From the NCBI RefSeq assembly GCF_014202315.1, contig NZ_JACHGN010000007.1:380569-444568 (forward strand): a stretch of 64,000 nt of DNA, in the 5' to 3' direction. A program made the position numbers and the translations under genes. Positions 40,084 through 60,500 of the stretch are shown one piece after another. Under the pieces are notes generated by a model. It saw only the letters and a program-made list of their open reading frames with translations, was not told the origin of the DNA and searched no databases. This DNA is from Thermocatellispora tengchongensis (GTDB lineage: Bacteria > Actinomycetota > Actinomycetes > Streptosporangiales > Streptosporangiaceae). How positions within the stretch are numbered: position 1 is the first letter of the stretch; every line of letters begins with the position of its first letter.

Positions 40084-40156
40084 GCCTCCGTAGCTCAGGG
40101 GATAGAGCACCGCTCTCCTAAAGCGGGTGCCGCAGGTTCGAATCCTGCCGGGGGCA
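40084..40156 (+). tRNA. tRNA-Arg (anticodon CCT), integration target
   Basis: Acceptor stem GCCTCCG/CGGGGGC, D arm TAGCTCAGGGGATAGAGCA, anticodon stem CCGCT/AGCGG with loop CTCCTAA (anticodon CCT), and T arm GCAGGTTCGAATCCTGC. 73 bases including discriminator A; CCA not encoded. Its 3' half is duplicated at 61227-61276, so it is the attachment site of the 21-kb element, and the integration kept the gene whole. Confidence 0.97.
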
Positions 40157-40157
40157 C
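40108..40157 (+). repeat. attL: 50-bp direct repeat within tRNA-Arg
   Basis: Identical to 61227-61276. It starts in the anticodon arm (CACCGCTCTCC) and runs to the base after the discriminator (GGGGGCAC). A tRNA 3' segment as core site is the hallmark of tyrosine-recombinase AICE integration. Confidence 0.95.
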
Positions 40158-40517
40158 CTAGTCGATCAGCAGATTCGCCGATGACCTGGGGTTACGCGCC
40201 TCGGGTCCTTTGCGCGCTAGGCAGCCGTAGGCCACCAGATGCCGGTGCATGTCGGCGCTCGCGGGATATACGCGGGATGGATCAAGGGCCGTTTCCGCAG
40301 GTCGCGCCAGGACGAGACCCCGTCCTCGATGCCGCGAGCGTAGCCGTCCCTCGTCGCCGGTCAAGGTCGTACGTCCTCGCTTCGCTGCGGGCGCTCCACC
40401 TTGACCGGCTCCTCAGGCCAGCGGATGAGTCAGCGTCGAGGACCGGGAGGAAAAGGGCCAGGAGGAGCGAACAGAAGGCCCCGGCACTGGGCCGGGGCCG
40501 AGAGTGGCAAGGGTAAG
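40158..40517. other. Left end of the element: no gene, one long inverted repeat
   Basis: 360 bases between attL and the integrase stop. No convincing ORF. The notable content is the hairpin at 40356-40409. Confidence 0.7.
40356..40409. terminator. 12-bp inverted repeat with 30-base loop
   Basis: GCCGGTCAAGGT and ACCTTGACCGGC form a perfect 12-bp stem. The loop contains GCTTCGCTGCGGGC and may fold further. It lies about 110 bases past the integrase stop on the transcribed side, so it could terminate int; in a rolling-circle element it might instead serve as a single-strand origin or Tra-recognition structure. Confidence 0.5.
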
Positions 40518-41880
40518 TCAGCCGAGGGCATCGTTGATCTTCCCGTTGATGTGCTCTTGCTGGCCGTCGAGGCACTTGGCGTAGACGCGGAGAAGGACGT
40601 CAACGCTGTGGCCGGCGCGCTTGGCCACTTCCGGGGCCGGGACTCCCGCGTTCAGCCAGAGCGACACCGCAGCATGCCGCAGGTCGTACGGCCGGGCGGC
40701 CAGGGATGAGGCGACCTGCGCCGGGGTGAGAGCGAGCTTGCGGGTCTCCTGCCAGACGTAGGAGTAGGCCGAGCTGGAGTAGGAGCCACCTGTCTCGGTA
40801 CGGAAAAGCCTGCCGTCCTTGGCCACACCGTACTCCTTGATGTGTTCGCGGAGGATGTCGACAAGGACGGGCGGTATGGGGACCTCCCGCGTCTCCTTGT
40901 CGGCACGGTGCTTGAGGCGCCGGGACTCGTGAGTCCGGCCGCTGTCAGTCCAGCGCTTCGTGCCCTGCGGACGGGCGCGCTCCAACACGATCAGGCCCCA
41001 CCCGGAGTCGGGCAGGGTCAGATTCGCTCTCCCGAAGGTCCGCCGCTTCCTCTGGCCGGAGAGCGCCGTAGTAGTTGCAGGCGAACAGCGCCCGGAGCCT
41101 CGCGCCACGTCTGCGACCGACCTTGGGCACGGCGTCGAGGAGTCGGCAGGCTTGAACCGGGGTAACGACTGTCCGGGGATCGACCACCGTCACGGCCTTG
41201 GGCGGGGTCCATCTGATCCCGTCCAGCGGGTTGCTCGCGAAGAGCTTCTGTTCCACGGCCAGTTCCAGCAGATGGTGCAGGACGGCTCGCTTTCGCCGTA
41301 TGGTGTTCGCCCCGGCGGGCTTGCCCGCGAACGTCGTCGAGATGGCGTCGAGGGCCAGCCGCAGCGTGGTCGCCTCCCCCAGCGCGAGCATGGGCAGCGA
41401 TGCCTTCTCCAGCCAGCGCAAAGCTGCGGCTTGCCGGCCGGTCGGCTCAACCCGCCGGCTCTCGGGTAGCAGAGTGTAGGACCGGAGCACACTCCGCAGG
41501 TCATCCGGATCGGGACGTCCCGGAAGGTCGGCCACGAGCGCAGGCACCAGGGTGAGCAGCGCGTAGGCGTCCGTCTCGCGGGTCCTGGCCGCCGAAGTGC
41601 TCCAGCGCCCAAGCACGTACGACTGCGCGAACTGCAGAAAGGACAAAGCCGAGGGCTCAGCCGGGATCATCGACACCGGCAGACCGGTGGCCAGGTCGAA
41701 GCCCTCCCCTTTCTTGGCGGCTTGCCGCAGCTCGGACAGGAAGCTCTCGGCGAGCGCCTTGGTGCGGAAGGTCTTGGACTTCGGCTTGCGACCGACCTTC
41801 CAACGAGCCTCGTAGGACGGCGTCTTGCTGGAGGCGTTCCGGCGAACCTCCCAGAAGCGCACGTCGTAGGCGAGGTTCAT
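40518..41880 (-). pseudogene. int: Tyrosine recombinase (integrase), frameshifted
   Basis: Two frames together make one AICE integrase. The first (41880 down) encodes the arm/core-binding half (MNLAYDVRFWEVRRNASSKT; VGRKPKSKTFRTKALAESF) and the start of the catalytic domain, including the first catalytic Arg in GALRPEEAADLRES. The second continues with NLTLPDSGWGLIVLE and carries PYDLRHAAVSLWL, GHSVDVLLRVYAKC (final His and Tyr). Reading skips one base at 41025 between the codons for Ser and Asn, a single-base insertion. A complete protein would be about 453 residues. Either the gene is inactive, or this is a sequence error; programmed frameshifting is less likely because no slippery site is evident. 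Confidence 0.88.
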
Positions 41881-46346: not shown

Positions 46347-46369
46347 GGGCGTACCTCCTAGGCATCGTG

Positions 46370-46411
46370 GTCAACATAGTCAACCTAGTTGGCCTGGTTG
46401 TCAATCTCTGA
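46370..46411. promoter_or_regulatory. Candidate operator for the GntR repressor
   Basis: Between the divergent transfer run and the GntR gene. It contains GTCAAC, GTCAAC, GTTG and GTTGTC words; CAACCTAGTTG (46381-46391) is palindromic, and GTCAACATA/GTCAACCTA are direct repeats 10 bp apart. In pSAM2 the GntR-like KorSA represses the activator gene from such a site; by analogy this would control transfer. Confidence 0.6.
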
Positions 46412-46430
46412 CTTGCAAGTTGGCTGAGGT

Positions 46431-46778
46431 GTGCTGAAAGCTGGGCTGGTGGTCAAGAACACCGGCCGTCCGCACTACCTCCAGATCGCCGACGATCTCC
46501 GGGAGCAGATCCGGCGCGGGGATCTGGCGCCCGGTGCCGCGCTGCCGTCAACCCGGGAACTCGCTGCGGCGTACGGCGCGTCGCTGAGCGTGGTGAAACT
46601 GGCGGTCGGGGTGCTGCGGACCGAAGGACTGGTGATCGGCCAGCAGGGCAAGGGCGTGTTCGTGCGGGACGGCGACGAGTCGCCGGCGGACGAGCTGAGC
46701 GAGCTGCGCGCGGCCGTACGGGAGCTGTCGGAGCGGGTCGCGCGCGTCGAAGCGGCGCTGTCGGACCGACTCAGCTAG
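46431..46778 (+). CDS. GntR family repressor (KorSA-like)
   Basis: 115 residues. One winged-helix domain (about 14-80: PHYLQIADDLREQIRRGDLAPG, LPSTRELAAAYGASLSVVKLAVGVLRTEGLV) followed by a short coiled coil (SELRAAVRELSERVARVEAAL) for dimerisation and no ligand domain. The start at GTG 46431 could instead be GTG 46449. Position and size match KorSA, the transfer repressor of pSAM2. Confidence 0.87.
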   Translation: MLKAGLVVKNTGRPHYLQIADDLREQIRRGDLAPGAALPSTRELAAAYGASLSVVKLAVGVLRTEGLVIGQQGKGVFVRDGDESPADELSELRAAVRELSERVARVEAALSDRLS

Positions 46779-46953: not shown

Positions 46954-47165
46954 GACCGGGCCGCTCCCTTCTGAGCGATGCCGCGCGGGTCACGGGGCGG
47001 ACGGCGAGAGTCGCGCCGCCGCCTGCGCGCCTTGCGGCGGGCGGCGTCCTTCCTGAGCCAGCGGTCCCGCGCCAGGCACTTGCGGCAGCGTGTCTGCCCG
47101 CGCGCCAGGATGGCACCGCAGGCGCAGGACGGCGTCTCGTCCAGCCGGATGGTCAGGTAGATCAT
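46950..47165 (-). CDS. Small Cys- and Arg-rich AICE protein
   Basis: 71 residues from ATG 47165 (MIYLTIRLDET). A four-Cys knuckle (SCACGAILARGQTRCRKCLARD) is followed by a strongly basic tail (RRKARRRRRDSRR), suggesting nucleic-acid binding. It is divergent from the first XRE-PLD gene, sharing the GACGTCC operator region. Confidence 0.65.
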   Translation of the reverse strand: MIYLTIRLDETPSCACGAILARGQTRCRKCLARDRWLRKDAARRKARRRRRDSRRPPRDPRGIAQKGAARS

Positions 47166-47248
47166 GGTGGCATCACGTCCTTTCGGGTCAGTGGTGGCGT
47201 GCGCTACCGAGAGTGCGCCGAACGGGCAGGACGAGATCACTGCATGAC

Positions 47249-47298
47249 GGGACATGTTCAAGACGTCCGTCATACGATGTGCGGGTCCCCGGACGTCC
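47249..47298. promoter_or_regulatory. GGACGTCC operator region, copy 1
   Basis: GGGACATG (47249), GACGTCC (47262-47268) and GGACGTCC (47291-47298) precede the first XRE-PLD gene and face the small divergent gene. The same palindromic word occurs in pairs at two other promoters of the element. Confidence 0.7.
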
Positions 47299-47314
47299 CT
47301 GATGAGCAGGTGAA

Positions 47315-48055
47315 ATGGCGAACGAGCGGTTGCGGGCGGCACTGCTGGCCAAGGGCATGAGCGTCGCGGAACTGGCCGAGGCGATCGGCGTGGACCCCAA
47401 GACCGTCGAGCGGTGGATCGCCAAAGGCCGCGAACCGTACCGTAAGCACCGTTACGCCGTGGCCGCCCTGCTCGGCGCCGACGAGACCTACCTGTGGCCG
47501 CAGGCCCTCACCCGCGAGCAGGTGGCGTCGGCGTCGGAGAGCGAGATCGTCACCGTCTACCCGCACCGCTGGAGCGTCCCCAGGGACACCTGGGGACGGC
47601 TGTTCGCGCACGCCGCCGAGGAGATCGGCGTGCTGGTCTACAGCGGGCTGTTCCTGGCCGACGACGCGGGCATGGTGCGGCTGTTCGGCGAGAAGGCCGG
47701 CGCGGGCGTACGGGTACGGATTCTGCTCGGCGACCCCGACAGTGCCGAGGTCGCCCAGCGTGGCGCCGATGAGGGGATCGACGCGGTGATGGCCGCACGG
47801 ATACGCAACGCGCTGGTGCTATATCGGCCGTTGCGCGGCCGGGAGAACGTCGAGATCCGGCTACATGCCACGGTGCTCTACAACTCCATCTACCGCGCCG
47901 ACGATCAGCTTCTCGTCAACACGCACGTGTACGGCACGCCCGCCGCCAACGCCCCCGTGCTGCATCTGCGCAAGGTGATCGGCGGCGACATGGTGTCCAC
48001 CTATGTGGAGAGTTTCGAACGGGTGTGGGCGCAGGCGAAGCCGGTAGAGTCCTGA
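47315..48055 (+). CDS. XRE-type HTH protein with PLD-like sensor domain (paralog 1)
   Basis: 246 residues. N-terminal XRE helix-turn-helix (LRAALLAKGMSVAELAEAIGVDPKTVERWI, residues 5-60), then a PLD-fold domain (about 85-240) with VRVRILLGDPDS and the HKD-equivalent LHATVLYNSIYRADDQLLVNTHVYG. The motif keeps the His and Asp but has Thr in place of Lys, so it should not cut phosphodiesters and probably senses a ligand. It precedes the NUDIX gene by 2 bases. A second copy lies at 50095. Confidence 0.85.
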   Translation: MANERLRAALLAKGMSVAELAEAIGVDPKTVERWIAKGREPYRKHRYAVAALLGADETYLWPQALTREQVASASESEIVTVYPHRWSVPRDTWGRLFAHAAEEIGVLVYSGLFLADDAGMVRLFGEKAGAGVRVRILLGDPDSAEVAQRGADEGIDAVMAARIRNALVLYRPLRGRENVEIRLHATVLYNSIYRADDQLLVNTHVYGTPAANAPVLHLRKVIGGDMVSTYVESFERVWAQAKPVES

Positions 48056-48057
48056 TC

Positions 48058-48534
48058 ATGGCCAGCCGGATCGACTACTACGACGACCCGGACGCGCCCG
48101 CGGCCAACAGCCTGGTCCCGTCCGTGAACGTCATCGTGACCAACGAGGCCGGGGACGTGCTGATGATCCGCCGCTCCGACAACGACAACTGGGCCGTGCC
48201 CGGCGGCGCGATCGACCTGGGCGAGTCGCTGCCGCAGGCCGCCGTACGCGAGACGCTGGAGGAGACCGGTATCCGGTGTGAGATCACCGGCCTGGCCGGC
48301 ACCTACACCGATCCGCGGCACGTGATCCTCTACACCTCCAACGGGGAGGTGCGGCAGGAGTTCTCGATCGTGCTCACCGCCCGGTATGTCGAGGGTTCGT
48401 TGCGGGAGAGCGAGGAGTCGCGGGAGGTGCGCTGGGTGCCACGCGGCGAGATCGGCTCGCTGGCCATGGATCGGTCGATGCGGATGCGGATCGAGCACTT
48501 CCTAGCCGGTACGGGGCTGCCGCACATCGGCTAG
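48058..48534 (+). CDS. NUDIX hydrolase
   Basis: 158 residues from ATG 48058, two bases after the XRE-PLD stop. Complete Nudix box: GGAIDLGESLPQAAVRETLEETGI (G-x5-E-x7-REtLEETG). Such enzymes split nucleoside diphosphates linked to another group; the substrate is unknown. Pairing with a sensor-like regulator suggests it handles a nucleotide signal or damaged nucleotide. Its end overlaps the convergent HD gene by 33 bases. Confidence 0.92.
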   Translation: MASRIDYYDDPDAPAANSLVPSVNVIVTNEAGDVLMIRRSDNDNWAVPGGAIDLGESLPQAAVRETLEETGIRCEITGLAGTYTDPRHVILYTSNGEVRQEFSIVLTARYVEGSLRESEESREVRWVPRGEIGSLAMDRSMRMRIEHFLAGTGLPHIG

Positions 48535-49068
48535 CGCCGCCTCCACCGCCCGTACCGAGGCCATGATGCATGGGGTCGCGGCGGTGATCGAGCGGCTGAC
48601 GAGATGATCGGGGCCGTAGCGGGTGTGGATCTCGGCCAGCCGGTCGATGACGTCCAGGTGCCGCCCGTCCGGGTCGGTGGTCATGTCGCAGTAGGTGAGC
48701 GCTTCGGCCAACTCGGGATGTTCCTCGTCGAACTCGCTCGTCAGGGCGTCGAACAGGTGCCGCTGGCCGGCCTCCATGACCGCGCACGAGTGGTGCGCCA
48801 CCAGTCGGCACAGGGTGTTGTCCGCTTTGGCGACGTCGCGGAGGTAGCGGGCGCCGTCGAGCTGGTGCATGCCCGTGTCGACGAGATCCGGGGCGTACCC
48901 GATGTCGTGCAGGTAGGCGGCGGCGACCAGCGTATCGGCCTCATCGCCGAGGATCACGGCCAGCGATTCGGCCCGCCTCGCCACGCCCTGCGTGTGCGCC
49001 CAGCGTCGCGGAAGCGGCTTCTCAAGCAGATCTCGGGCCAGGTCACGGGCCCACTCAACGGATTGCAC
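48502..49068 (-). CDS. HD domain phosphohydrolase
   Basis: 188 residues. Metal-binding HD residues: His25 in RRWAHTQGVA, His54-Asp55 in AAYLHDIGYAP, His pair in LVAHHSCAVMEA, and Asp in TYCDMTTDPDG. HD proteins of this size act on nucleotides or nucleotide messengers. It is a common AICE accessory gene next to NUDIX genes. Its promoter holds two GGACGTCC palindromes. Confidence 0.9.
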   Translation of the reverse strand: MQSVEWARDLARDLLEKPLPRRWAHTQGVARRAESLAVILGDEADTLVAAAYLHDIGYAPDLVDTGMHQLDGARYLRDVAKADNTLCRLVAHHSCAVMEAGQRHLFDALTSEFDEEHPELAEALTYCDMTTDPDGRHLDVIDRLAEIHTRYGPDHLVSRSITAATPCIMASVRAVEAALADVRQPRTG

Positions 49069-49095
49069 GTCTTCAACGATGGCGCGCCGAGTCCT

Positions 49096-49134
49096 GGGAC
49101 ATCAGACATCCGAAACGGACGTCCCAGGACGTCC
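49096..49134. promoter_or_regulatory. GGACGTCC operator region, copy 2
   Basis: Upstream of the HD gene: GGGACAT (49096), then two perfect GGACGTCC palindromes at 49117-49124 and 49127-49134, starts 10 bp apart. Confidence 0.75.
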
Positions 49135-49140
49135 GAGAAA

Positions 49141-49596
49141 TCACGATCCGCGAACGTAGCGGCCTTTGCCATGTTCTGTGACGATCAGCCCCGCACGCTC
49201 CAACTCGGCCAACGCATGCCGCACCGTGTTCCGCGACACCTGGAAGCGCCGCCGCAGCTCAGCCTCGCTGGGCAACGTGTCGCCGGGCGCGAGGTCACCC
49301 CGTGCGATCTGCCTGCGCAGGTTATGGGCGATGAACGCGTACCGGTACAGCGCCACAGACGGCTCGCTTCCGCTCACCACGACGCGCCCCTTGGCGGGAA
49401 CGGTCACGATCAGGCCCTCGCCCTCCAGGACCGCCAGCGCCCGGCGTACGGTGTTGCGGGCAACGTGGAACTCCCTGCACAGTGCCACCTCAGAGGGCAG
49501 CACCGCCCCCGGCGGATACTCGCCCAGGGCGATCCGCTCCCGCAGCCGGTCGGCGATCTGGGTGAAGATCCGCCAACCGGTCAGCCACTGGCTCAC
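49141..49596 (-). CDS. Protein with two GntR-type winged-helix domains
   Basis: 151 residues from GTG 49596 (VSQWLTGWRIF). The sequence consists of two consecutive GntR DNA-binding domains: IFTQIADRLRERIALGEYPPGAVLPSE...RNTVRRALAVLEGEGLIV and YAFIAHNLRRQIARGDLAPGDTLPSE...RNTVRHALAELERAGLIV. There is no ligand-binding domain. The duplication makes a single chain equivalent to a GntR dimer. It lies 13 bases after the upstream gene. Confidence 0.85.
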   Translation of the reverse strand: MSQWLTGWRIFTQIADRLRERIALGEYPPGAVLPSEVALCREFHVARNTVRRALAVLEGEGLIVTVPAKGRVVVSGSEPSVALYRYAFIAHNLRRQIARGDLAPGDTLPSEAELRRRFQVSRNTVRHALAELERAGLIVTEHGKGRYVRGS

Positions 49597-49609
49597 GGGA
49601 TGCCCGGCG

Positions 49610-49954
49610 TCAGAACCGGTACGCCTGCGCGATCTGGTGCAGGTTGAAGGAGATCTCTCCCTGCTCCCCAGGATTCCACCCCGCCGCAGCGGCTTCCTGG
49701 ACGCGAGCGACGGCCCGGGGCACATCGGTGCACGACACCCGCTCGTCGGGCTGATCGCCCCAGTAGAACCACATGAACGGCAGGTGCACGTACACCCTGC
49801 GCGTGACGAGGTGGACGTCCATCACCTCCACCCGCGGCCGGTCATCGTCGCCGATGACGAACGCGGCGGTGACGCCGCGTTCGGCCAGCTCGTTCCGCAA
49901 CGCCACCAGCAAGGCTTCCTGATAGGCGCGCTGCTGCCGCTGAATCGTGTTCAT
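49610..49954 (-). CDS. Hypothetical AICE protein
   Basis: 114 residues from ATG 49954 (MNTIQRQQRAYQEALLVALRNELAERG). Soluble, one domain, containing RVEVMDVHLVTRRVYVHLPFMWFYWGD and ending GEISFNLHQIAQAYRF. No recognised family. Divergent from the second XRE-PLD gene across the third operator region. Confidence 0.65.
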   Translation of the reverse strand: MNTIQRQQRAYQEALLVALRNELAERGVTAAFVIGDDDRPRVEVMDVHLVTRRVYVHLPFMWFYWGDQPDERVSCTDVPRAVARVQEAAAAGWNPGEQGEISFNLHQIAQAYRF

Positions 49955-50030
49955 GGAAGGGTCCTCTCGGGTCGCTCTGACTGACGCTCCGAGCCTGCTG
50001 GCGAGGGAGGAACCTCTACACCGCAACTTG

Positions 50031-50063
50031 GGGACGTCTGGGGACGTCTTGTGTTAACGTCCC
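50031..50063. promoter_or_regulatory. GGACGTCC operator region, copy 3
   Basis: Two direct GGGACGTCT words (50031 and 50041, 10 bp apart) and an inverted AACGTCCC (50056-50063) lie between the divergent genes starting at 49954 and 50095. Confidence 0.75.
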
Positions 50064-50094
50064 AGGTGGCAGCCCTACCCCCGGAGGTGCCCAC

Positions 50095-50823
50095 ATGACC
50101 GAGTACCTGCGCAACGCACTCGCCAGGGCCCGCCTCACCCCCGCCGACGTCGCCACCCACCTCGCCGTCGACCCCAAAACCGTCGACCGCTGGCTCAAGG
50201 GCCGCACCCCATACCAGCGCCACCGCTGGACCCTCGCCGACCTTCTCGGCGTCGACGAAGCCGATCTCTGGCCCGACGTCGCGTCCCGCCGGCTCCCCGT
50301 CACCAGCGAAGTCCGAGCGGTCTACCCGCACCGCTGGGCCGTACCCCGTGCCGTCTGGCACCGCCACTTCCAGTCAGCGACGAAGGAGATCGCGATCCTG
50401 GCCTACAGCGGGCTGTTCCTCGCCGAAGACACCGGCCTTCTCCACCTCTTGGCCGACCAGGCCCGCGCCGGCGTCCGAGTCCGCATCCTGCTCGGCGACC
50501 CCGACAGCCCGCCCGTAGCCGCACGAGGCGAAGAGGAAGCGATCGGCCCCGAGGTCATGGCCGCCCGCATCCGCAACGCCCTCACCCTCTACCGGCCCCT
50601 CACAACCATCGACGGCGTAGAACTGCGCCTCCACCGCACCGTCCTCTACACATCTATCTACCGCGCAGACGACGACCTCCTGGTCAACCCCCACGTGTAC
50701 GGAACCCCCGCCCCTAAGGCTCCCGTCCTCCACCTCACGGCCACCCCTGGGCCGGGGGCAGCGACCACCTACCTCGATAGCTACGAACATGTCTGGTCCG
50801 CGGCACAGCAAGACAGCAGTTGA
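50095..50823 (+). CDS. XRE-type HTH protein with PLD-like sensor domain (paralog 2)
   Basis: 242 residues, clearly homologous end to end with the protein at 47315: LRNALARARLTPADVATHLAVDPKTVDRWL, then VYPHRWAVPRAVW, AYSGLFLAEDTGLL, VRVRILLGDPDS and LHRTVLYTSIYRADDDLLVNPHVYG. It has the same loss of the HKD Lys. It is not followed by a NUDIX gene. GGAGGT precedes the ATG by a short spacing. It is the last gene before the defence-like cargo. Confidence 0.85.
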   Translation: MTEYLRNALARARLTPADVATHLAVDPKTVDRWLKGRTPYQRHRWTLADLLGVDEADLWPDVASRRLPVTSEVRAVYPHRWAVPRAVWHRHFQSATKEIAILAYSGLFLAEDTGLLHLLADQARAGVRVRILLGDPDSPPVAARGEEEAIGPEVMAARIRNALTLYRPLTTIDGVELRLHRTVLYTSIYRADDDLLVNPHVYGTPAPKAPVLHLTATPGPGAATTYLDSYEHVWSAAQQDSS

Positions 50824-51345: not shown

Positions 51346-54300
51346 ATGGATGAAACATCAGGGGACTCGCTGTTCTCTGTACTGACTGTCGGGGCAACCG
51401 TGAACGGCCTCGCTGGCCCCGTTTCCGCGAAGATCCTCTCAGTCGACCGGCTCACCGACGATTCCGCATCGGTTGCTTACCGCACGGAAGAAGGCGGACT
51501 CGGAGAGAAGATCGTGTTCGCCGACATGCTGCCGCATCTCAAAGCCGTCAAACCTGGTAGCGCGTTCACCTTCGATGCCTCATCGGATGCGTTCCTCCTC
51601 GCCGCCGAAGCACGGCGAATGCGGCTCGCTCACCTGTTTGATCCGCTCTCCGCCCTTGGTACCTCCGACGTGGAGCCACTGCCGCACCAGTTGCGTGCCG
51701 TCTACGGCGAGATGTTGCCCCGCCAGCCCCTGCGCTATGTCCTCGCTGACGACCCCGGCGCGGGCAAGACCGTCATGGCCGGACTCCTCATCAAAGAACT
51801 CCTCCTGCGCGGCGACGCCGCCAACGTCCTTGTTGTCGCGCCCGGCGTTCTCGTCGATCAGTGGGATGAGGAGATGCGGGAGAAGTTCTCCCTTGACTTT
51901 GAGATGCTCATCCGGGACAAGATCCTCGGCGAAGCTAACCCGTTCACTCGCGGTGGTCTCTGGCTGGCTCGCCTCGACGTGCTTGCCCGCAACAGCGAAG
52001 GTGTCCTGGATAAGGCGTGCACGATCGATTGGGACCTGGTCATCTTCGACGAGGCCCACAAGATGTCGGCCTCTGTGTGGGGTAGCGAGGTTAAGAAGAC
52101 CAAGCGGTACCAGATGGCTGAGGAACTCGGGAAGCACACCCGTAACCTCCTCATGATGACCGCGACCCCGCACTCGGGGAAGGAAGAACAGTTCCAGTTG
52201 TTCATGGCGCTGCTCGACTCTGACCGGTTCGAAGGCGTCGCCCGCGAGGGAACTCGGAAAGTCGACGTGTCCGACATGATGCGTCGCCTGGTGAAAGAAG
52301 AGCTCCTCACCTTCGATGGCACTCGACTGTTCCCGGAGCGGTTCGCCTACACCGTCAAGTACGAGCTTTCCCAGGCGGAGAAGGATCTCTATCGCGCGGT
52401 TACCGAGTACGTGCGCGAGGAGATGAATCGGAACGATGCCTCTGAGGGCGACAAGCGGAAGAAGGTCGCGGTCGGCTTTGCTCTCACCACCCTGCAGCGC
52501 CGCCTCGCTTCCTCGCCTGCGGCCATCCACCGGTCGCTGGAGCGACGCAAGAAGCGGCTTGAGGGTGAACTGCACGAGGCACGAATCATGGCCTCGGCGC
52601 CCAAAAAGGACGATTTTGACGTACCCGAAGATGAGGCCGACCTCGAAGAACTCACCGACGCTGAGCGTGAGGAACTCGAAGACAAGGCCGTCGCTGCGGC
52701 CACCGTTTCCCGTACTCCGGAAGAACTCCAAACCGAGATCAAGGTACTCGACCGACTCCTAGTGAAGTCACTCAAGGTCAAGACCAGCCTCACCTACGCG
52801 AAGTGGGACGCGCTACGCGACACCCTCGACGAGGCCGACGAGATGCGCGACTCCACCGGTGCACGCCGCAAGGTCATCATCTTCACCGAGCACAAGGACA
52901 CCCTCGACGACCTCGTTGGTCGACTGACCAACTACCTCGGCCGAGATGACGCCGTCATCACCATCCACGGCGGCACCAAGCGCGAGGACCGCAAGAAGGC
53001 CAAGGAGATCTTCGAGCAGGACGAAAATTGCGTCTTCCTCGTTGCCACTGATGCCGCCGGCGAAGGCATCAACCTCCACAAGAACGCACACCTACTCATC
53101 AACTACGACCTCCCGTGGAACCCCAACCGCATCGAGCAGCGGTTTGGACGGGTCCACCGCATCGGCCAACCCAACGTCTGCCACATGTGGTCGCTGGTCG
53201 CGAAGGACACCCGCGAAGGAGACGTGTACACCCGGCTGCTGGAGAAGCTCGACGAACAGAGAGCGGCACTCGGCGGGCGAGTTTACGACGTGCTCGGCAA
53301 GTTGTTTGAAGGCAACAGCCTGCGTGACCTAATGATTCAGGCCATTCGCGAAGGCGATCGGCCTGAACGGCAGCGCTACCTCACCGAGGTTGTTGACGCG
53401 AAGGTCGGCGACGGCATTGCTGAACTCCTTGAAGAGAATCAGTTGGTACCCTCACGTCTCGACGAGTCCGAGATTGACGAGGTCCGCAAACAGATGGAGC
53501 GCGCTGAAGCCGCCCGTCTTCAACCGCACCACGTCGAGGCGTTCTTCCACAAGGCGTTCAAGGACCTCGGTGGCAACCTTCGCATGCGCGAGCACCATCG
53601 ATACGAGATCAAGACCGTGCCGAGCGACATCAAGGAACATGACCGGCTCACCGGCTACGGCGCTCCTATAGTTAACTCCTATCACCGCATCACCTTCGAC
53701 CCGAAGTATGTGCGTGTCCTCGGTAACAACCACCTCGCCACCCTGATCCACCCTGGGCACCCTCTCATGTCCGCGACCATGGGTGTCATTACCGACCGGC
53801 ACCACGAGGCACTCCGACGTGGAACCATCCTCGTCGACCGTGCCGACCTCAACATCGAGCCCTACATCGTCTGTCTCCTTGAACACGATGTGACGGATGG
53901 CCGCGTAGGCAGGGATGGACAACCTCAGATCATCTCCCGCCGTGCCCAGTACGTGCGCATCGACCCCGGCGGCACCATCACAGCACTCACTCAAAGCCCC
54001 ATTCCCAACCTCGACGCCGTCACCGACGAAGAGCGCGAAGCAGCACAAGCCATACTCAAGGAGTCGTGGTGCCAGGCCGCTGACCTGGGGTCCCGTATCG
54101 TCCGGCATGCCTCCAGCACCGTGGCGCGGGATCACGTTGATGCGGTAACCGCACGCACCATCGAACGAGTTGCCAAGACCGAGCGACTCGTGCGCGACCG
54201 GTTGACCAAGGAGATCAACTATTGGGACCAGCGCGCCTTCGAGTTGCGAGAACAGGAACGTGCGGGGAAGAAGACGCGGCTGCCCGCTGAGCAGATCGAA

Positions 54301-54849
54301 CAGCGTGCCGAAGCCCTTTCTCGTCGTCTTGGTCGGCGGCTACGCGAACTCGCCAAGGAACGTGACATTTCCGCGCGTCCGCCTCGAGTCACCGGTGCAT
54401 GCCTCGTCATCACCCAAGGCTGGATCGACGCACGGATAGACTCCGAAGCCGCAGCTCACCGGGCGAAAGAAACTGCTCGTATCGAGAGACTCGCAGTCGA
54501 CGCTGTGCTCCGTGTTGAAAAGGTGCTCGGGCACGACGCGACCGAGATGCCACACAATAATCCCGGCTACGATGTTGAATCCGATACCCCCAACGGGCTC
54601 GACTTCATCGAGGTCAAAGGGCGATTCGAGGGAGGCGACAACTTCGTCCTCACCCGCCAGGAAGCCGTTACCGCACTCAACAAGGGCAAGCACAGCGTCC
54701 TGGCGCTCGTCCGCGTTCTGTCTGACGGCAGCACGACAGTTCGCTATCTGCGCCAACCGATAACCACGCCGATTGACCCACGAGCAGCTCGTGTCGAGTT
54801 CGACTGGGAACCATTCTGGAACGAAGCCGAGGAGATGGACCAGCAGTGA
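51346..54849 (+). CDS. SNF2/DEAH-type helicase with C-terminal DUF3883 nuclease-like domain
   Basis: 1167 residues from ATG 51346 (MDETSGDSLF), AGGGG upstream. Superfamily 2 motor: Walker A DDPGAGKT (135-142), DEAH 235-238, motif III MTATPHSG (271-278), and motif VI QRFGRVHRIGQ (598-608), with the RapA/SNF2-like C-half NYDLPWNPNRIEQRFG. A charged linker (about 400-470) separates the RecA lobes. The last 94 residues are a DUF3883 domain: GYDVES (Asp1076) and LDFIEVKG (Glu1089, Lys1091), the D...ExK order of restriction-like nucleases. Similar helicases occur in BREX type 3 and class 1 DISARM. It overlaps the methylase start by 4 bases. GC is lower than in the host genes. Confidence 0.9.
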   Translation: MDETSGDSLFSVLTVGATVNGLAGPVSAKILSVDRLTDDSASVAYRTEEGGLGEKIVFADMLPHLKAVKPGSAFTFDASSDAFLLAAEARRMRLAHLFDPLSALGTSDVEPLPHQLRAVYGEMLPRQPLRYVLADDPGAGKTVMAGLLIKELLLRGDAANVLVVAPGVLVDQWDEEMREKFSLDFEMLIRDKILGEANPFTRGGLWLARLDVLARNSEGVLDKACTIDWDLVIFDEAHKMSASVWGSEVKKTKRYQMAEELGKHTRNLLMMTATPHSGKEEQFQLFMALLDSDRFEGVAREGTRKVDVSDMMRRLVKEELLTFDGTRLFPERFAYTVKYELSQAEKDLYRAVTEYVREEMNRNDASEGDKRKKVAVGFALTTLQRRLASSPAAIHRSLERRKKRLEGELHEARIMASAPKKDDFDVPEDEADLEELTDAEREELEDKAVAAATVSRTPEELQTEIKVLDRLLVKSLKVKTSLTYAKWDALRDTLDEADEMRDSTGARRKVIIFTEHKDTLDDLVGRLTNYLGRDDAVITIHGGTKREDRKKAKEIFEQDENCVFLVATDAAGEGINLHKNAHLLINYDLPWNPNRIEQRFGRVHRIGQPNVCHMWSLVAKDTREGDVYTRLLEKLDEQRAALGGRVYDVLGKLFEGNSLRDLMIQAIREGDRPERQRYLTEVVDAKVGDGIAELLEENQLVPSRLDESEIDEVRKQMERAEAARLQPHHVEAFFHKAFKDLGGNLRMREHHRYEIKTVPSDIKEHDRLTGYGAPIVNSYHRITFDPKYVRVLGNNHLATLIHPGHPLMSATMGVITDRHHEALRRGTILVDRADLNIEPYIVCLLEHDVTDGRVGRDGQPQIISRRAQYVRIDPGGTITALTQSPIPNLDAVTDEEREAAQAILKESWCQAADLGSRIVRHASSTVARDHVDAVTARTIERVAKTERLVRDRLTKEINYWDQRAFELREQERAGKKTRLPAEQIEQRAEALSRRLGRRLRELAKERDISARPPRVTGACLVITQGWIDARIDSEAAAHRAKETARIERLAVDAVLRVEKVLGHDATEMPHNNPGYDVESDTPNGLDFIEVKGRFEGGDNFVLTRQEAVTALNKGKHSVLALVRVLSDGSTTVRYLRQPITTPIDPRAARVEFDWEPFWNEAEEMDQQ

Positions 54850-57566
54850 CCGAGAACAACCGCAAGCGGAAGCTGATTGAAGTTGCCCTTCCCCTCGACG
54901 AGATTAACGCCGCCTGCAAGGCCGACAAAGACCGGAAAACCGGTACCATCCGCAACCTGCACAAGTGGTTTGCGCCCATGCCGCTCCCGGCCTGGCGTGC
55001 GCTCCTATTCGCCGCGCTAATCGACGACCCCGAGGACGACAACCAGCGCGTCTACCTGCTCGATGTTATTAAGCGTCTGGTTGCCAATGGGGCTGACTTG
55101 CCCGACCAGGACACCCTCGACGAAGCGAAGGCACTTATTGAGAAACAGTTTCCCGAGGGCCTTCCAATCGTCATGGACCCGTTCTGCGGGGGTGGTTCCA
55201 CGCTCGTCGAAGCACAGAGGCTGGGTCTAAGAACCGAGGGATCGGACATCAATCCCGTACCCGTGCTAATCAGCCGTACCCTCACCGCGTTGTTGCCTTC
55301 AGTGACCGGCTTTCAACCGCGGCACCCACATGGTGCCTCCGAACTGGACGCCTCTATGTCGGCTCACCAAAGTCGGCTCTTCTCCGACGCCCAAACGCCC
55401 TTCAGTGGCCTCGACGGCCTCGTTCGGGATGTCGAATTTCACGCTGAACGTATTCGTCAAGCGGCCATTGACCGGCTTCGGGATGCCTTCCCTGAGACAC
55501 CTGGGGAAGTTCCGGTGGCCTGGCTGTGGGCTCGAACTGTTCCATGCACTAATCCTGCGTGCGGTGTCGAGACGATTCTGACCACGACATGGTGGCTCTC
55601 CAAGAAGAAGGGCGACCTCGCCTGGGTTGAGCCATACATCGACCAGGGGCGCGTGATGTTGGAGGTGCATAGCGGCAAGCGGTCGGGAGGGCCGCAGGAC
55701 CCTCCTAAGGTTGGACGAGGCGCTTCGTTCGCATGCGTCGCTTGCGCTCAGGTTGTGACCGAAGAGGATGTGCGTCGGCTTGCAGAAGCCCATCAAATGG
55801 GACTTCGCATGGTCGCGGTAGCGACCGACGTGGATGGTCGGCGCTGTTATCGAGCGCCGAACCCACACGAGGAGCGCGCGGCTGCGGATGTTGTAGTGCC
55901 GGAGTCGGTATCGGAGGTCGGTCTTGGCCCAGCCAACCAGTACGTAGCGCCTCCAAGGTACGGACTTACTAAATTCCGGGATCTCTTCACGCCTAGGCAA
56001 CTCCTGACCATCAGCACCTTCGCGGAACTGGTCGCGGCGACGCCCGCTCGTATCCGGGACGAGGGCGGCAGCGATGAATGGGCCCGTGCCGTGACCACTG
56101 TTCTGGGTCTTGCAGTAGGGCAACTCGCTCGCTTCGGATCCAGCCTATGTCAGTGGCGTCTACGAGGTGCGGCCAATTCCAAAGCTGAGGCTGCGTTCAG
56201 TCGTGCCGATCTGCCCATGATGTGGGACTTCGCCGAGACATACTTCGATGGAGGGTCCGTTGGAGACTGGACTCAGATTTGTAGGTCCGTCACTCGCGCT
56301 TTCCCGTACGTTGTTAGCGGCGGTTGTGGAAAGGTAGTGAGACGCGACGCTAGGGAAGCCATCGGTAACGGGCAGGCGCTCGTGGCTACCGATCCGCCGT
56401 ATTTCGATGCGATCGGGTATGCGGATCTGTCGGACTATTTCTACATGTGGCATAGGATCGCGTTTCGTTCCGTTTATCCCGATCTCTACCAGACCATTGC
56501 AGTGCCCAAGTCGGGTGAACTGACAGCCTTCCCCTGGCATGCCGGAGGCACAAAAGAAGCCGCGCGGAATTACTTCATCAACGGTTTTACCGAGACGTTC
56601 AAGAGCCTTCAGCAGGCTTCTACCCCAGGGCTTCCTCTCCTAGTGGTTTACGCGTCGAAGGAGCAGAAGGGGGGACGTGAAGAGGAAACGCGTTGGTCTT
56701 CAATCCTGACCGCGATCATTGATGCTGGTATGGAGATCACAGGCGCATGGCCTGTTCACGGTACAGGCAGCACTCGCATGAGAGGTATCGGTGCGAATGC
56801 CGTCGCCGCCTACATCGTGATGATCTGCCGTCCTCGTGCACAGCAGGCCGGTTCATGCACGCTCGCTGAATTCAACCGCGCTCTTCGCCGAGAACTAGGC
56901 CCGGCAGTTCGCGATCTGCAAGCGGCGTCAATCCTCCCAGTAGACTTGGCGCAGGCGGCCATGGGGCCAGGGATGCAGATTTACTCGCGCTATCGGGCGG
57001 TTCTTGACCAGTCAGGATCGCGTGTGCCAGTCGACAGGGCTCTTCGCCTCATTAACCTCGCTCTAGCCGAAGTTCTCGATGAGCAGGAAGGTGAACTGGA
57101 TCCCGAATCGCGGTTTGCAGTCCGCTGGTGGGAGACCCACGCTTGGGACTCGGCTTCATTCGGTGAGGCCGACAAAACGGTACGTCCTTTGGGTATCAGC
57201 GTCGACGATGTCGCTCGTGCGCAAGTGATCACCAGCCAGGGGAGCAAGGTTCAACTTCTCGGCTTCGGTGACCTGGACCCAACTTGGGTACCGTCTGGAG
57301 ATATGCGCCCCACAGCCTGGGAAGCCGTCCACCACTTGGCTCACCGGCTAATCGACCGAGGCGGGGAGTTGGAGGCCGCGCGGCTCATGGCCGTACTCGA
57401 TAACTTGCGGGATCCGGCCATGGCACTGGTGTACCGCCTGCACGACATCGCAGCGAAGAAGGGGCGGACGCGGGACCAGGAGCGCTACAACGCGCTGATC
57501 AACTCATGGGCCGAGCTGGTGAAATTGAGTTCTGACGGTTCTATCGCGAATGAAGGGCTGTTCTAA
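54846..57566 (+). CDS. DUF1156 DNA methyltransferase (adenine-type DPPY)
   Basis: 906 residues. The DUF1156 N-terminus is KRKLIEVALPLDEI with LHKWFAPMPLPAWR (38-51). Methylase motif I is DPFCGGGST (111-119) and motif IV is DPPYFDAIGYADLSDYFY (516 on), the order of N6-adenine or N4-cytosine enzymes. Between them lie zinc-ribbon Cys pairs (CTNPAC and CVAC). The C-terminal 180 residues are helical. It starts at GTG 54846 overlapping the helicase stop. In restriction-like systems it would mark self DNA; here it may mark the element and host. Confidence 0.9.
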   Translation: MTENNRKRKLIEVALPLDEINAACKADKDRKTGTIRNLHKWFAPMPLPAWRALLFAALIDDPEDDNQRVYLLDVIKRLVANGADLPDQDTLDEAKALIEKQFPEGLPIVMDPFCGGGSTLVEAQRLGLRTEGSDINPVPVLISRTLTALLPSVTGFQPRHPHGASELDASMSAHQSRLFSDAQTPFSGLDGLVRDVEFHAERIRQAAIDRLRDAFPETPGEVPVAWLWARTVPCTNPACGVETILTTTWWLSKKKGDLAWVEPYIDQGRVMLEVHSGKRSGGPQDPPKVGRGASFACVACAQVVTEEDVRRLAEAHQMGLRMVAVATDVDGRRCYRAPNPHEERAAADVVVPESVSEVGLGPANQYVAPPRYGLTKFRDLFTPRQLLTISTFAELVAATPARIRDEGGSDEWARAVTTVLGLAVGQLARFGSSLCQWRLRGAANSKAEAAFSRADLPMMWDFAETYFDGGSVGDWTQICRSVTRAFPYVVSGGCGKVVRRDAREAIGNGQALVATDPPYFDAIGYADLSDYFYMWHRIAFRSVYPDLYQTIAVPKSGELTAFPWHAGGTKEAARNYFINGFTETFKSLQQASTPGLPLLVVYASKEQKGGREEETRWSSILTAIIDAGMEITGAWPVHGTGSTRMRGIGANAVAAYIVMICRPRAQQAGSCTLAEFNRALRRELGPAVRDLQAASILPVDLAQAAMGPGMQIYSRYRAVLDQSGSRVPVDRALRLINLALAEVLDEQEGELDPESRFAVRWWETHAWDSASFGEADKTVRPLGISVDDVARAQVITSQGSKVQLLGFGDLDPTWVPSGDMRPTAWEAVHHLAHRLIDRGGELEAARLMAVLDNLRDPAMALVYRLHDIAAKKGRTRDQERYNALINSWAELVKLSSDGSIANEGLF

Positions 57567-57568
57567 GG

Positions 57569-60500
57569 ATGGCGTTGACGAACAAGGAACGGGTTGGACG
57601 TGTCCTTGATCTGGTGGCGGAGGGCCTTGGCCCGTGGATGATCGCGCTGCTGGAGGTCAAGTACGGCACGGACTGGGCTGGCCATGTGGTCCGGGCTGCC
57701 GGCCCGACGAACCGCGACACGACGCCGAACCCCTCGGACCCCGCCTACCTGTTCTGGATCTTCGACAAGCAGTGGCACAGCTTGTTCCGCGATCACTTGA
57801 GTTTCGAGGACAAGCGCGCGGTGTCGGCACTGTGGGATGCTCGTAAGGAGTGGGCGCACGGTGCCAAGGTTGCCTCAGATCGAACCGAACGTGTCCTCAT
57901 GGATGGCGAACACCTGCTGCGTTCGATCGGTGCAGTCGAGCAAGCGGACGCGGTTGATGAGATGCGCCGGGAATTCCGCCGGATCATGTTTGAGGAGGAC
58001 CAGAAGCGCATTCAACGCGCCAAGGAGAGGTCCCTATCCGTGCAGGTCGACTCGACCGGTCTCCCGGCATGGCGCGACGTGGTGGAGCCGCACGACGACG
58101 TGGCGCGAGGGTCGTTCCAGTTGGCCCAGTTCGCCGCTGACCTGCGGCAGGTGCACCAGGGTATCGCTGGACCTGAGTACGGCGACCCGACGGAGTTCTT
58201 CGGACGTACCTACCTGACCCGTGGACTCCGGTACTTGCTGGAGCAGGCCGTCCAGCGCCTCACCGGTGTCGGGGGGGAGCCGGTGATCGACCTGATGACC
58301 ACCTTTGGTGGAGGCAAGACCCACTCGCTGCTCGCCGTCTACCACGCGGCCTCCGGCGTGTCGGCGGACAAGTTGCCCGGCATGCGTGAGGTCCTCGACA
58401 ACCTCGGCATCAGTGACCTTCCTGCCAAGGTAAACCGCGCCGTCCTCGTCGGCAACGACCTGTCCGTCCTGGGGTCCACCAAGCCAGACGGCACGGTGGT
58501 TAACACGATGTGGGGCGAACTGGCGTGGCAGTTAGGCGGATCCGAAGGGTTCGCGATGCTCGCTCGGTACGACGCAAAGTCTGCGCCTCCGCCTACCACC
58601 GACCTTGAGGCGTTGTTCAAGAAGTTCGGCCCCTGCGTCATTCTCGTCGACGAGTGGGTCGCTTATCTGCGGCAGTTGTGGTCCCGTGATGACGTGGCCC
58701 CGGCGGGCACGTTCGACACCCACATGACGTTCGTGCAATCCCTGACCGAGGCGACCAAAGCAGTTGCCAACGCCCTGCTGGTAGTGTCACTGCCTGCCTC
58801 TGAGCTGGTCCGCGACATGCACATGGCGGACGCGCCTATCGAGAACCAGCACGAGATCGGCGGCACCGCAGGGCTCGAAGCGCTGCGTCACCTCCGGTCG
58901 GTGATCCACCGCCTGGAGACCGCATGGCAGCCCGCCTCTGTCGAGGAGTCTTTTGAGATCGTGCGTCGGCGTATCTTCAAGCCGTTCGGCAGTATGGAGA
59001 CCGCCAACCGCGACCTGGTGGTCGGGAAGTTTCTGAACCACTATCAGAAGCACGCCGCCGACCTTCCCAACGAGGTCATGCAGCCTGGCTACCGGTCGGC
59101 GATGAAGGCCGCATACCCCATCCACCCGGAGTTGTTCGACCGGCTCTACCAGGACTGGTCCACATTGGAGCGGTTCCAGCGAACCCGAGGTGTCCTGCGA
59201 CTCATGGCAACCGTCGTGCACGCATTGTGGACCAGCGGGGACAAGTCCCCGATGATCCTTCCTGCATCCGTCCCGATGGACAACCAGAAGGTGTTCGAGG
59301 AGATCACTAATCACCTCGACGACACCTGGAAGCCCATCGTGGACGCAGACATCGCCGGTGACGGCTCTGCGGCCTCCACCATCGACAACGAAATCAAGAT
59401 TCTCGGTCGTTCAATGGCCACGAAGCGCGCCGCGCGCTGTGTCTTCCTCGGCACTGCGCCGATGGCGAACCGCCGTGAACGCGACGGCTCCCAAGCTCCT
59501 GTGCGAGGCATCGAGCAGAAGCGAGTCGTCCTTGGCTGCACCTACCCCGGCGATAACCCTTCCCACGTTGCTGACGCGCTGCGTCGCCTCGGGGATCAGG
59601 GTAAGTACATGAACCGGGACCAGGACCGTTACTGGCTGAGCCTGCAGCAGACGGTCTCCCAGATTGTGCAGGAGCGTGCGGACGCCTACCACGAGGACCA
59701 GGTTTTTGACGAACTCGCCGCTGTGGTCCGGCGGGAAACTGACAAGGGCCTGTTCCAGCGGGTTCACCGATTTCCGGCAAGCAGTATCGACGTGCAAGAT
59801 GACCCCGGTATCGGGCTTGTCATCTTCGGCCCCGATCGGGCTTTCTCGAAGAAGGCCAAGTCGAAGGCCGAAGACGCTGCGCTGGAGTTCTTGAACAAGC
59901 GAGGGACCAACGCCCGAATCTACAAGAACAGTCTTGTGTTCCTCGCCCCCGAGGTTGACCGGGTCGACGTCATGCTCACCGCGGTCCGGAACCGCATGGC
60001 ATGGGAGTACATCCTCGACAACAAGGATTCCCTCAACCTCGATCAGCACAACATCAAGTTGGCGACCCAACGGGTTAAGCAGGCCGAGCAAACCGTCGCC
60101 GACTCGATTCGTGAGGCGTACCGGTGGATCCTCGTCCCGCATCAAGAGCCCGGCAAGGCCAACGTCGATCTAGAAGCCATCCTCATGAACGGCGAAGGTA
60201 CCCTCGTCGAACGTGTCACTAAGAAGGCACGGGGAGAAGAATTCATTGTCGAACGATTCTCCGCGGCGCTGCTTCGCATGCAAATCAACCGCCTCGACCT
60301 GTGGAGGGAAAAGCGCCACGTCCCCGTCGATACGATGGCTGGCTACTTCAGCCAGTACGTCTACATGCCCAAGGTCGTCGATCCCAAGGTAATCATCGAC
60401 TGCGTGTGGCAGCTTGACGAGGTTCTCCACATCGACTTGGACGGCTTCGCCTATGCGGACGCCCACGAAGGTGACCGCTATGTGGGGCTCACGTTGAAGA

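Follow-up and report, generated by a model that had tools for sequence, protein, structure and literature searches.

Which regulator acts on the accessory module of a mobile element in Thermocatellispora tengchongensis, and through which DNA site? The module lies in a 64,000-nucleotide stretch (assembly GCF_014202315.1, contig NZ_JACHGN010000007.1, positions 380,569 to 444,568; hereafter the window, in whose coordinates positions are given) that carries an actinomycete integrative and conjugative element (AICE) of the pSAM2 type. It includes two paralogous genes, XRE-PLD genes 1 and 2, whose products combine a Cro/C1-type (XRE) helix-turn-helix (HTH) with a domain resembling the phospholipase D (PLD) fold. 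The initial annotation had noticed words recurring at several promoters of the module and had proposed a single regulon, controlled by a resident factor such as the XRE-PLD proteins or a double-GntR protein. The idea of a shared operator under a resident regulator is well supported by its conservation, by a fixed promoter geometry and by genome-wide specificity. The site is a pair of GACGTC cores, and its sequence context indicates that it is probably the operator of the adjoining XRE-PLD proteins, which would repress their own promoters.

The element encodes a RepSA-type initiator of the pSAM2 family (E 1e-164), an FtsK-type transfer protein (FtsK_SpoIIIE, 81.3 bits against a cut-off of 24) and a tyrosine integrase. 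One of the two frames over which this integrase is split matches Phage_integrase with E 7e-5 and 23.1 bits, below the cut-off of 27.1.

Paired cores at the promoters of the module

The words were found where they had been reported. AGACGTCC (47261-47268) and GGACGTCC (47291-47298) lie ahead of XRE-PLD gene 1, GGACGTCC is present twice (49117-49124 and 49127-49134) in the gap between the HD-domain and double-GntR genes, and GGACGTCT occurs at 50032-50039 and 50042-50049 ahead of XRE-PLD gene 2. The octamer GGACGTCC taken alone is not enriched in the window, with seven exact copies against 4.04 expected (at least seven in 11 of 100 shuffles) and 77 copies with up to one mismatch against 75.6 expected. 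Since these counts are near expectation, the single octamer was rejected as the regulatory unit. Moreover, the words had been described as always intergenic; because four of the seven exact octamers (5666, 41513, 43929 and 49813) sit inside open reading frames (ORFs) taken for genes, this description applies to the core pairs only.

What carries the information is a pair of GACGTC cores one helical turn from each other, their starts being separated by 10 or 11 bp. The window contains two exact 10-bp pairs: GACGTC-TGGG-GACGTC (starts 50033/50043, site 50033-50048, plus strand), upstream of XRE-PLD gene 2 (50095-50823, plus strand, 242 aa), and GACGTC-CCAG-GACGTC (starts 49118/49128, site 49118-49133, no strand assigned), in the HD/double-GntR gap. 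XRE-PLD gene 1 (47315-48055, plus strand, 246 aa) is preceded by site A (47251-47267, plus strand), in which GACATG at 47251 and GACGTC at 47262 are 11 bp apart with two mismatches. The core at 47292 is part of a separate degenerate site located 30 bp downstream of this pair, site B (47282-47297, plus strand), which reads CGGGTC and GACGTC with 10-bp spacing and three mismatches.

These pairs have a nearly constant position relative to a -10-like hexamer, TAnnnT. In the window, the putative -10 boxes are TACGAT (47273-47278, plus strand), 5 nt past core 2 of gene 1, and TAACGT (50055-50060, plus strand), 6 nt past core 2 of gene 2. Among the related loci described below, the offset is 6 in 59 and 5 in 8 gene 2 promoters (67 of 68), and 5 in 47 and 4 in 23 gene 1 promoters (70 of 74). 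Overall, TAnnnT stands 4-6 nt past core 2 in 137 of 142 XRE-PLD promoters, for a background of 0.002 per position. Given these offsets and the pair spacings of 10 and 11 bp, almost every promoter would have core 1 21-22 bp ahead of its -10 box, at the -35 position with a spacer of about 18 bp, and core 2 would fall within the spacer between the -35 and -10 elements. Site B follows the -10 box and precedes the start codon, in the window as in the other gene 1 promoters inspected. Proteins bound in the spacer or downstream of the -10 box usually repress.

Conservation, specificity and a link to the integrase

The initial annotation had suggested searching related elements for the motif. We compared 80 loci carrying XRE-PLD gene 1, with up to 6 kb on each side, taken from named genome records; they are the best 80 of 566 matches ranked by similarity, and a few organisms appear twice. 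Pairs were counted within 150 nt upstream, after dropping loci with less than 120 nt upstream or with matches starting beyond residue 12. Most loci share the same order: gene 1, then a NUDIX gene; the HD and double-GntR genes on the other strand; then gene 2. The pair is retained upstream of both XRE-PLD genes. For gene 2, it is present with at most one mismatch in all 68 related loci. For gene 1, 46 of 78 loci have it with at most one mismatch and 75 of 78 with at most two; when the two spacings are told apart, 76 of 80 loci have site A (11 bp) and 63 of 80 have site B (10 bp), each with up to two mismatches. Every genus label is represented, 29 of 29 for site A and 26 of 26 for gene 2, the labels being those of record titles, with two metagenome-assembled genomes named only to order and [Actinomadura] parvosata counted separately.

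The small gene divergent from XRE-PLD gene 2 has a pair upstream in 32 of 32 loci (at most one mismatch). The placement of a site before the HD gene holds for the window, where the pair is exact; in relatives it is lineage-dependent, with 41 of 75 upstreams containing a pair with at most one mismatch and 56 of 75 with two. Neighbouring genes serve as controls: at the one-mismatch threshold, a pair precedes 0 of 78 NUDIX, 1 of 60 double-GntR, 0 of 34 single-GntR, 0 of 31 p112 and 0 of 16 ftsK genes (1 of 219 pooled), and with two mismatches 1 of 78, 2 of 60, 1 of 34, 1 of 31 and 2 of 16, respectively. Shuffled upstreams give 0.0 to 0.2 pairs in the one-mismatch comparison, and the density of such pairs is 4.95 per kb in XRE-PLD and HD promoters versus 0.059 per kb in the other 912 kb.

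The specificity extends to whole genomes. The 11.65-Mb host genome contains exact 10-bp pairs at only seven places (none for the reversed-pattern control), and five of them belong to three XRE-PLD modules: two in the window, two on contig C25 and one on contig C1. The C25 module mirrors that of the window: one of its sites precedes gene 2 and the other lies between the HD and double-GntR genes. The C1 module has its single site in the HD/double-GntR gap. Furthermore, exact GGGACGTCTNGGGACGTC occurs at 12 places in 60 relatives, ten of which are just upstream of an XRE-PLD gene; the other two are an integrase promoter (genome G039) and a tandem array. In the class (296 genomes), exact GGGACGTCTNGGGACGTCT has 11 occurrences, nine of them directly 5' of an XRE-PLD gene and two in tandem arrays. 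Three genomes (G000, G029 and G056) are common to both sets. The exact places outside XRE-PLD loci in G217 and G056 were set aside as unrelated repeats, being tandem arrays with further copies: one is at the 3' end of a gene whose start resembles glutamine synthetase, and the other in a repetitive stretch. With one mismatch, 11 of 18 places in the 60 relatives (reversed control, 1) and 10 of 18 in the 296 genomes (reversed control, 5) are upstream of an XRE-PLD gene. The expectation that the motif should be scarce inside genes and elsewhere in the genome fails for the octamer, which is unenriched in the window and also found in genes, and holds for the pair, which is rare and concentrated in XRE-PLD modules.

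A second set of XRE-PLD genes came from a search of the class and was chosen regardless of the motif, although L185 and a few others had been inspected before. After removal of 6 identical upstreams among 69, the pair (up to two mismatches) is present in 35 of 63 upstreams, against 0.8 in shuffles, 2 of 49 NUDIX and 7 of 31 HD upstreams; its frequency is 13 of 16 for proteins with at least 60% identity and 21 of 30 between 45 and 60%. Among 322 distinct XRE-PLD proteins (counted after removing duplicates, proteins shorter than 180 aa and upstreams shorter than 100 nt), 264 have an exact GACGTC within 115 nt upstream. Shuffling gives a mean of 11.6 and a maximum of 20, and twelve other palindromes give 2 to 15. 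By origin, GACGTC is found for 142 of 144 proteins from the first 80 loci, 36 of 61 from the class set, 77 of 106 Streptomyces-like and 9 of 11 others, an uneven sample because the Streptomyces-like set was picked by similarity to one protein. At E up to 1e-30, 167 of 295 Streptomyces-like genomes contain XRE-PLD relatives; across the class, 65 of 296 genomes do so at E up to 1e-15.

Beyond the regulon initially proposed, the operator is also linked to the integrase. Outside the counted promoters, 18 exact pairs were found. One is near the end of L119 and has the gene 2 pattern; the other 17, all from Actinomadura loci, cluster around a single position roughly 3.3 kb ahead of gene 1. All 17 are followed by TAnnnT (offset 6 in 16, offset 5 in one), and in 14 of them a long minus-strand ORF has its first start codon within about 115 nt of the site. 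By eye, each of these 14 ORFs has a tyrosine-recombinase-like C-terminus, and the four that were scanned all pass the Phage_integrase cut-off. A scan of the 80 loci for the pair plus a -10 box added L113, with one mismatch. Altogether, an operator-promoter stands at or before a putative integrase gene in 18 of 25 loci from genera that we take to belong to Thermomonosporaceae; in the other seven, the integrase may be outside the sequence stretch examined. In these elements, as for regulators of the ImmR kind in ICEs and phages, sites are thus found at the regulator's own promoters and at an element promoter, that of the integrase.

In the window itself, the integrase frames have no operator: between 36000 and 51500, pairs with up to two mismatches are found only at the module or inside ORFs. 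The integrase is spread over two overlapping minus-strand frames of 311 and 196 aa (40518-41880) and therefore looks interrupted in this assembly. A tRNA-Arg gene (40084-40158) adjoins these frames and is a possible attachment site.

Candidate binding proteins and alternative readings

Either of the two resident regulators could read the pair. The double-GntR protein (49141-49599, minus strand, 152 aa) is a tandem of two GntR domains, strongly matched in most modules, and two fused winged HTH stretches, each contacting one core, would suit a 10-bp direct repeat. GACGTC is present in 130 of 135 XRE-PLD upstreams from loci with this gene. However, eight loci (L095, L096, L125, L126, L127, L131, L135 and L137) have no GntR ORF detectable with a profile built from the double-GntR alignment, and all eight keep GACGTC upstream of both XRE-PLD genes. 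In their genomes, whose completeness is not stated, the best double-GntR matches among those listed are weak (E 1e-14 to 3e-10) and correspond to one domain, to part of two or to frames interrupted by stops. L130, where GntR fragments were found, and a ninth genome (G068) with a better match were excluded from this group. We therefore consider it unlikely that the double-GntR protein is the binder, and the XRE-PLD proteins appear to fit this role better since the sites persist at both of their genes without a GntR gene. Consistently, Streptomyces phage Alderaan encodes an XRE-PLD homologue of 35% identity (L169, 5022-6671). Its gene is preceded by a single GACGTC core, which TAGGGT follows after 6 nt, and a Cro-like gene comes some 700 bp further on, an arrangement reminiscent of an immunity region; no GntR gene is annotated within the 10.75 kb of phage sequence examined. 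The two kinds of resident candidate named initially are thus not equally placed, the XRE-PLD proteins being favoured by the eight loci and the double-GntR protein being disfavoured by them.

Binding by XRE-PLD proteins could also activate. At promoters with a weak -35, a protein in the -35 region could contact RNA polymerase; GGGACG, the hexamer in the -35 position, departs widely from TTGACA, a scan for consensus promoters was empty, and a core placed just ahead of the -10 box might be compatible with activation. This sign of regulation seems rather doubtful to us, as core 2 would be between the -35 and -10 elements and site B (63 of 80) is downstream of the -10 box in the loci inspected, positions from which bound proteins usually repress. 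A site for a host regulator, or the -35 element of a host sigma factor, would account for the fixed distance between the first core and TAnnnT. It is very improbable, given that five of only seven exact pairs in the 11.65-Mb genome are in XRE-PLD modules and that nine of the 11 exact places in 296 genomes precede XRE-PLD genes; besides, a host sigma factor would not need a second core in the spacer. As for chance, or common ancestry of promoter DNA without function, the unenriched octamer agrees with it, but it is scarcely credible: when each of the 26 genus labels contributes a single locus, the mean majority frequency across the operator columns of gene 2 is 0.96, against 0.51 for the remaining columns, and the paired unit recurs at unrelated genes, including the integrase.

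Several observations weigh against repression by the XRE-PLD proteins through this site. Both sites ahead of gene 1 are degenerate in the window. GACGTC is less frequent without any GntR gene (44 of 63, a group that includes remote homologues) than beside a double-GntR gene (130 of 135). Below 45% identity, only 1 of 17 XRE-PLD proteins of the second set has a pair. With one mismatch, 8 of the 18 places in the 296 genomes have no XRE-PLD gene just downstream; among the remaining one-mismatch places of this set and of the 60 relatives, the few that were scanned (L142, L143, L146 and L149) gave no XRE-PLD match. No promoter emerged when 47150-50120 was scanned for the sigma-70 consensus, an outcome compatible with a poor -35 yet providing no support; a terminator scan of the same region was also empty. 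Moreover, the position of an operator does not fix the sign of regulation. Finally, two Streptomyces-like groups have a drifted operator (GTCGTCCC and GA[AG]GTCCC) and have A/S or N/I instead of D at HTH residue 27, GTCGTCC being found in 28 of 38 upstreams for A/S, 27 of 248 for D and 0 of 34 for N/I. This covariation between the operator and the recognition helix is striking by eye, and it was dropped as proof after ranking the columns by mutual information: residue 27 ranks 27th of 242 for GTCGTCC, 30th for GA[AG]GTCCC and 30th for GACGTC (322 proteins); among the 106 Streptomyces-like proteins it ranks 34th of 240. A protein reading the site directly would be expected to covary in this way, but because many other columns follow the same split, the covariation is inseparable from descent, and L085 and L086 combine A27 with a canonical core.

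The XRE-PLD proteins and the proposed switch

The product of gene 1 belongs to the Cro/C1-type (XRE) regulators (HTH_3, 26.3 bits against a cut-off of 23), and that of gene 2 is below the HTH cut-offs (HTH_31, 26.2 against 27). For DUF5919 (PF19319, cut-off 23.5), gene 1 scores 23.0 bits, gene 2 has no match and the Alderaan homologue reaches 24.0 bits. In a structure model of the gene 1 product built with 30 sequences (mean pLDDT 89.9, pTM 0.68), the C-terminal domain (about residues 75-246) is predicted to adopt a PLD-like fold. Its top match among PDB chains is TrmBL2 (Z 14.7, 139 residues, root-mean-square deviation 2.6), and further matches are TrmB, FAM83B, NucT (Z 14.2) and Nuc (Z 13.2). 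At the N-terminus, a stretch of roughly 63 residues matches P22 c2 (Z 10.7), ImmR (Z 10.6) and CylR2, within a range of Z 10.4 to 10.7, values around 10 that for small helical domains may reflect only a common arrangement. The HxK motif of PLD (HKD) enzymes is absent: His 184 is present in 310 of 322 XRE-PLD proteins, and position 186 is never Lys (Thr in 276). R182, H184, S191, D196, N202 and H204 are each retained in 308 to 317 of the 322. The missing Lys 186 and this conserved R-H-S-D-N-H set suggest a ligand pocket without PLD catalysis.

From the computed operator, its geometry, its specificity and its persistence without GntR genes, we infer binding, a dimer, a sign of regulation and a ligand that could be arranged as follows. 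An XRE-PLD dimer would bind both cores on one face of the helix, covering the -35 region and the spacer, and would thereby repress both XRE-PLD promoters, its own and the paralogue's. Repression would extend to the HD gene and the small divergent gene in many lineages, and to the integrase in elements of Thermomonosporaceae, which would make the system a homeostatic switch of the phage CI or ImmR kind. The PLD fold, devoid of the catalytic lysine and endowed with the conserved residues, would act as a sensor whose bound signal relieves repression, as in TrmB-type regulators. As a conjecture, the NUDIX and HD enzymes might act on that signal.

TrmB is a sugar-binding regulator. Like the XRE-PLD proteins, the archaeal TrmB and TrmBL2 associate a DNA-binding domain with a PLD-like fold; they differ by their low identity (11-15%) and another HTH type, the XRE-PLD proteins being found in bacterial mobile elements, and the comparison concerns the fold alone. 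ImmR of ICEBs1 is described as having six binding sites, spread over the regulatory regions of two promoters (PMC8960796). ImmR and P22 c2 share with the XRE-PLD proteins the HTH fold and several sites at their own and element promoters, whereas the C-terminal domain is here a PLD fold and repression is proposed from sequence.

The choice of an AICE between the integrated state and transfer is known in detail mainly for pSAM2, through KorSA and Pra. In the KorSA-Pra system (SCO3932 relative), the AICE regulator acts on its own promoter and on a key gene of the element (PMC8584621). The XRE-PLD proteins would likewise act at their own promoters, and the window has a RepSA of the pSAM2 family; KorSA differs in being a GntR protein, and the SCO3932 motif, AC[TC]T[AG]TT[GC][TG][GT]ACG, is unlike the GACGTC pairs. 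Furthermore, a cluster resembling the present module, mdp-nud-xre, has been described in four Frankia AICEs, Sco5349, pMEA100 and pSE211, as have reg, nud and mdp of pACPL from Actinoplanes SE50/110 (PMC3218068, PMC3364876). A metal-dependent phosphohydrolase, a Nudix protein and a regulator are likewise found together there; the available portions of these accounts, compared by description only, describe no operator, PLD-fold domain, autoregulation or integrase link. One of them also attributes conjugal immunity to the Nudix protein Pif of pSAM2 (PMC3218068). Genes of the XRE, GntR and NUDIX kinds are marked in AICEs by a 2025 paper (PMC11706625), whose consulted passages do not mention the operator either. 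Our literature search, with subscription journals largely outside its coverage, returned no description of a GACGTC-pair operator in titles and abstract starts, nothing on DUF5919 and no AICE study among the GGACGTCC matches listed.

The remaining features of the module are as follows. The NUDIX hydrolase gene (48058-48534, plus strand) is directly 3' of XRE-PLD gene 1, the HD-domain phosphohydrolase gene, identified by a domain match, occupies 48502-49068 on the minus strand, and the small gene divergent from XRE-PLD gene 2 (49610-49954, minus strand, 114 aa), which shares its operator region, has no Pfam match. A second conserved word close to GGACGAGATCACTACA is present just upstream of site A (about 47228-47245) in several families and may be a divergent promoter or another site. 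Repeated GTCAAC/GTTGNC words at 46347-46431, between a 112-aa gene and the single-GntR gene, are possibly a separate operator of the single-GntR protein. Directly past XRE-PLD gene 2, genes in 51346-60955 match the complete set of PADLOC Hma models (HmaA helicase, HmaB methylase and HmaC ATPase, the last with a Swt1-like HEPN); no core pair is present between 50049 and 51500. Among relatives, the HD-gap site is palindromic in some loci (e.g. L107 and L140) and could alternatively be a hairpin there, one locus encodes an apparent triple rather than double GntR protein (L048, 2181-2855), and Sphaerimonospora thailandensis has an extra XRE-PLD and NUDIX gene pair just upstream of a gene 1 devoid of operator pair (L045, 5674-6877; L076).

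A bolder generalisation, which we consider rather doubtful, is that XRE-PLD proteins are a widespread, uncharacterised class of master switches of actinobacterial mobile elements, in which a phage-repressor-like HTH and a dead PLD-fold sensor would respond to a nucleotide-like signal made or destroyed by the neighbouring NUDIX and HD enzymes. A metabolic cue, or a resident element being present, would then set conjugal immunity as well as integrase expression via the paired GACGTC operator. More directly, the operator ties the known but unexplained Nudix-HD-XRE cluster to the control of the element. Since the operator is now defined, control by XRE-PLD proteins becomes directly testable and members of the regulon can be recognised by this marker. 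The retention of the site across many genera suggests that XRE-PLD regulators may switch themselves, and sometimes the mobility of the element, on and off.

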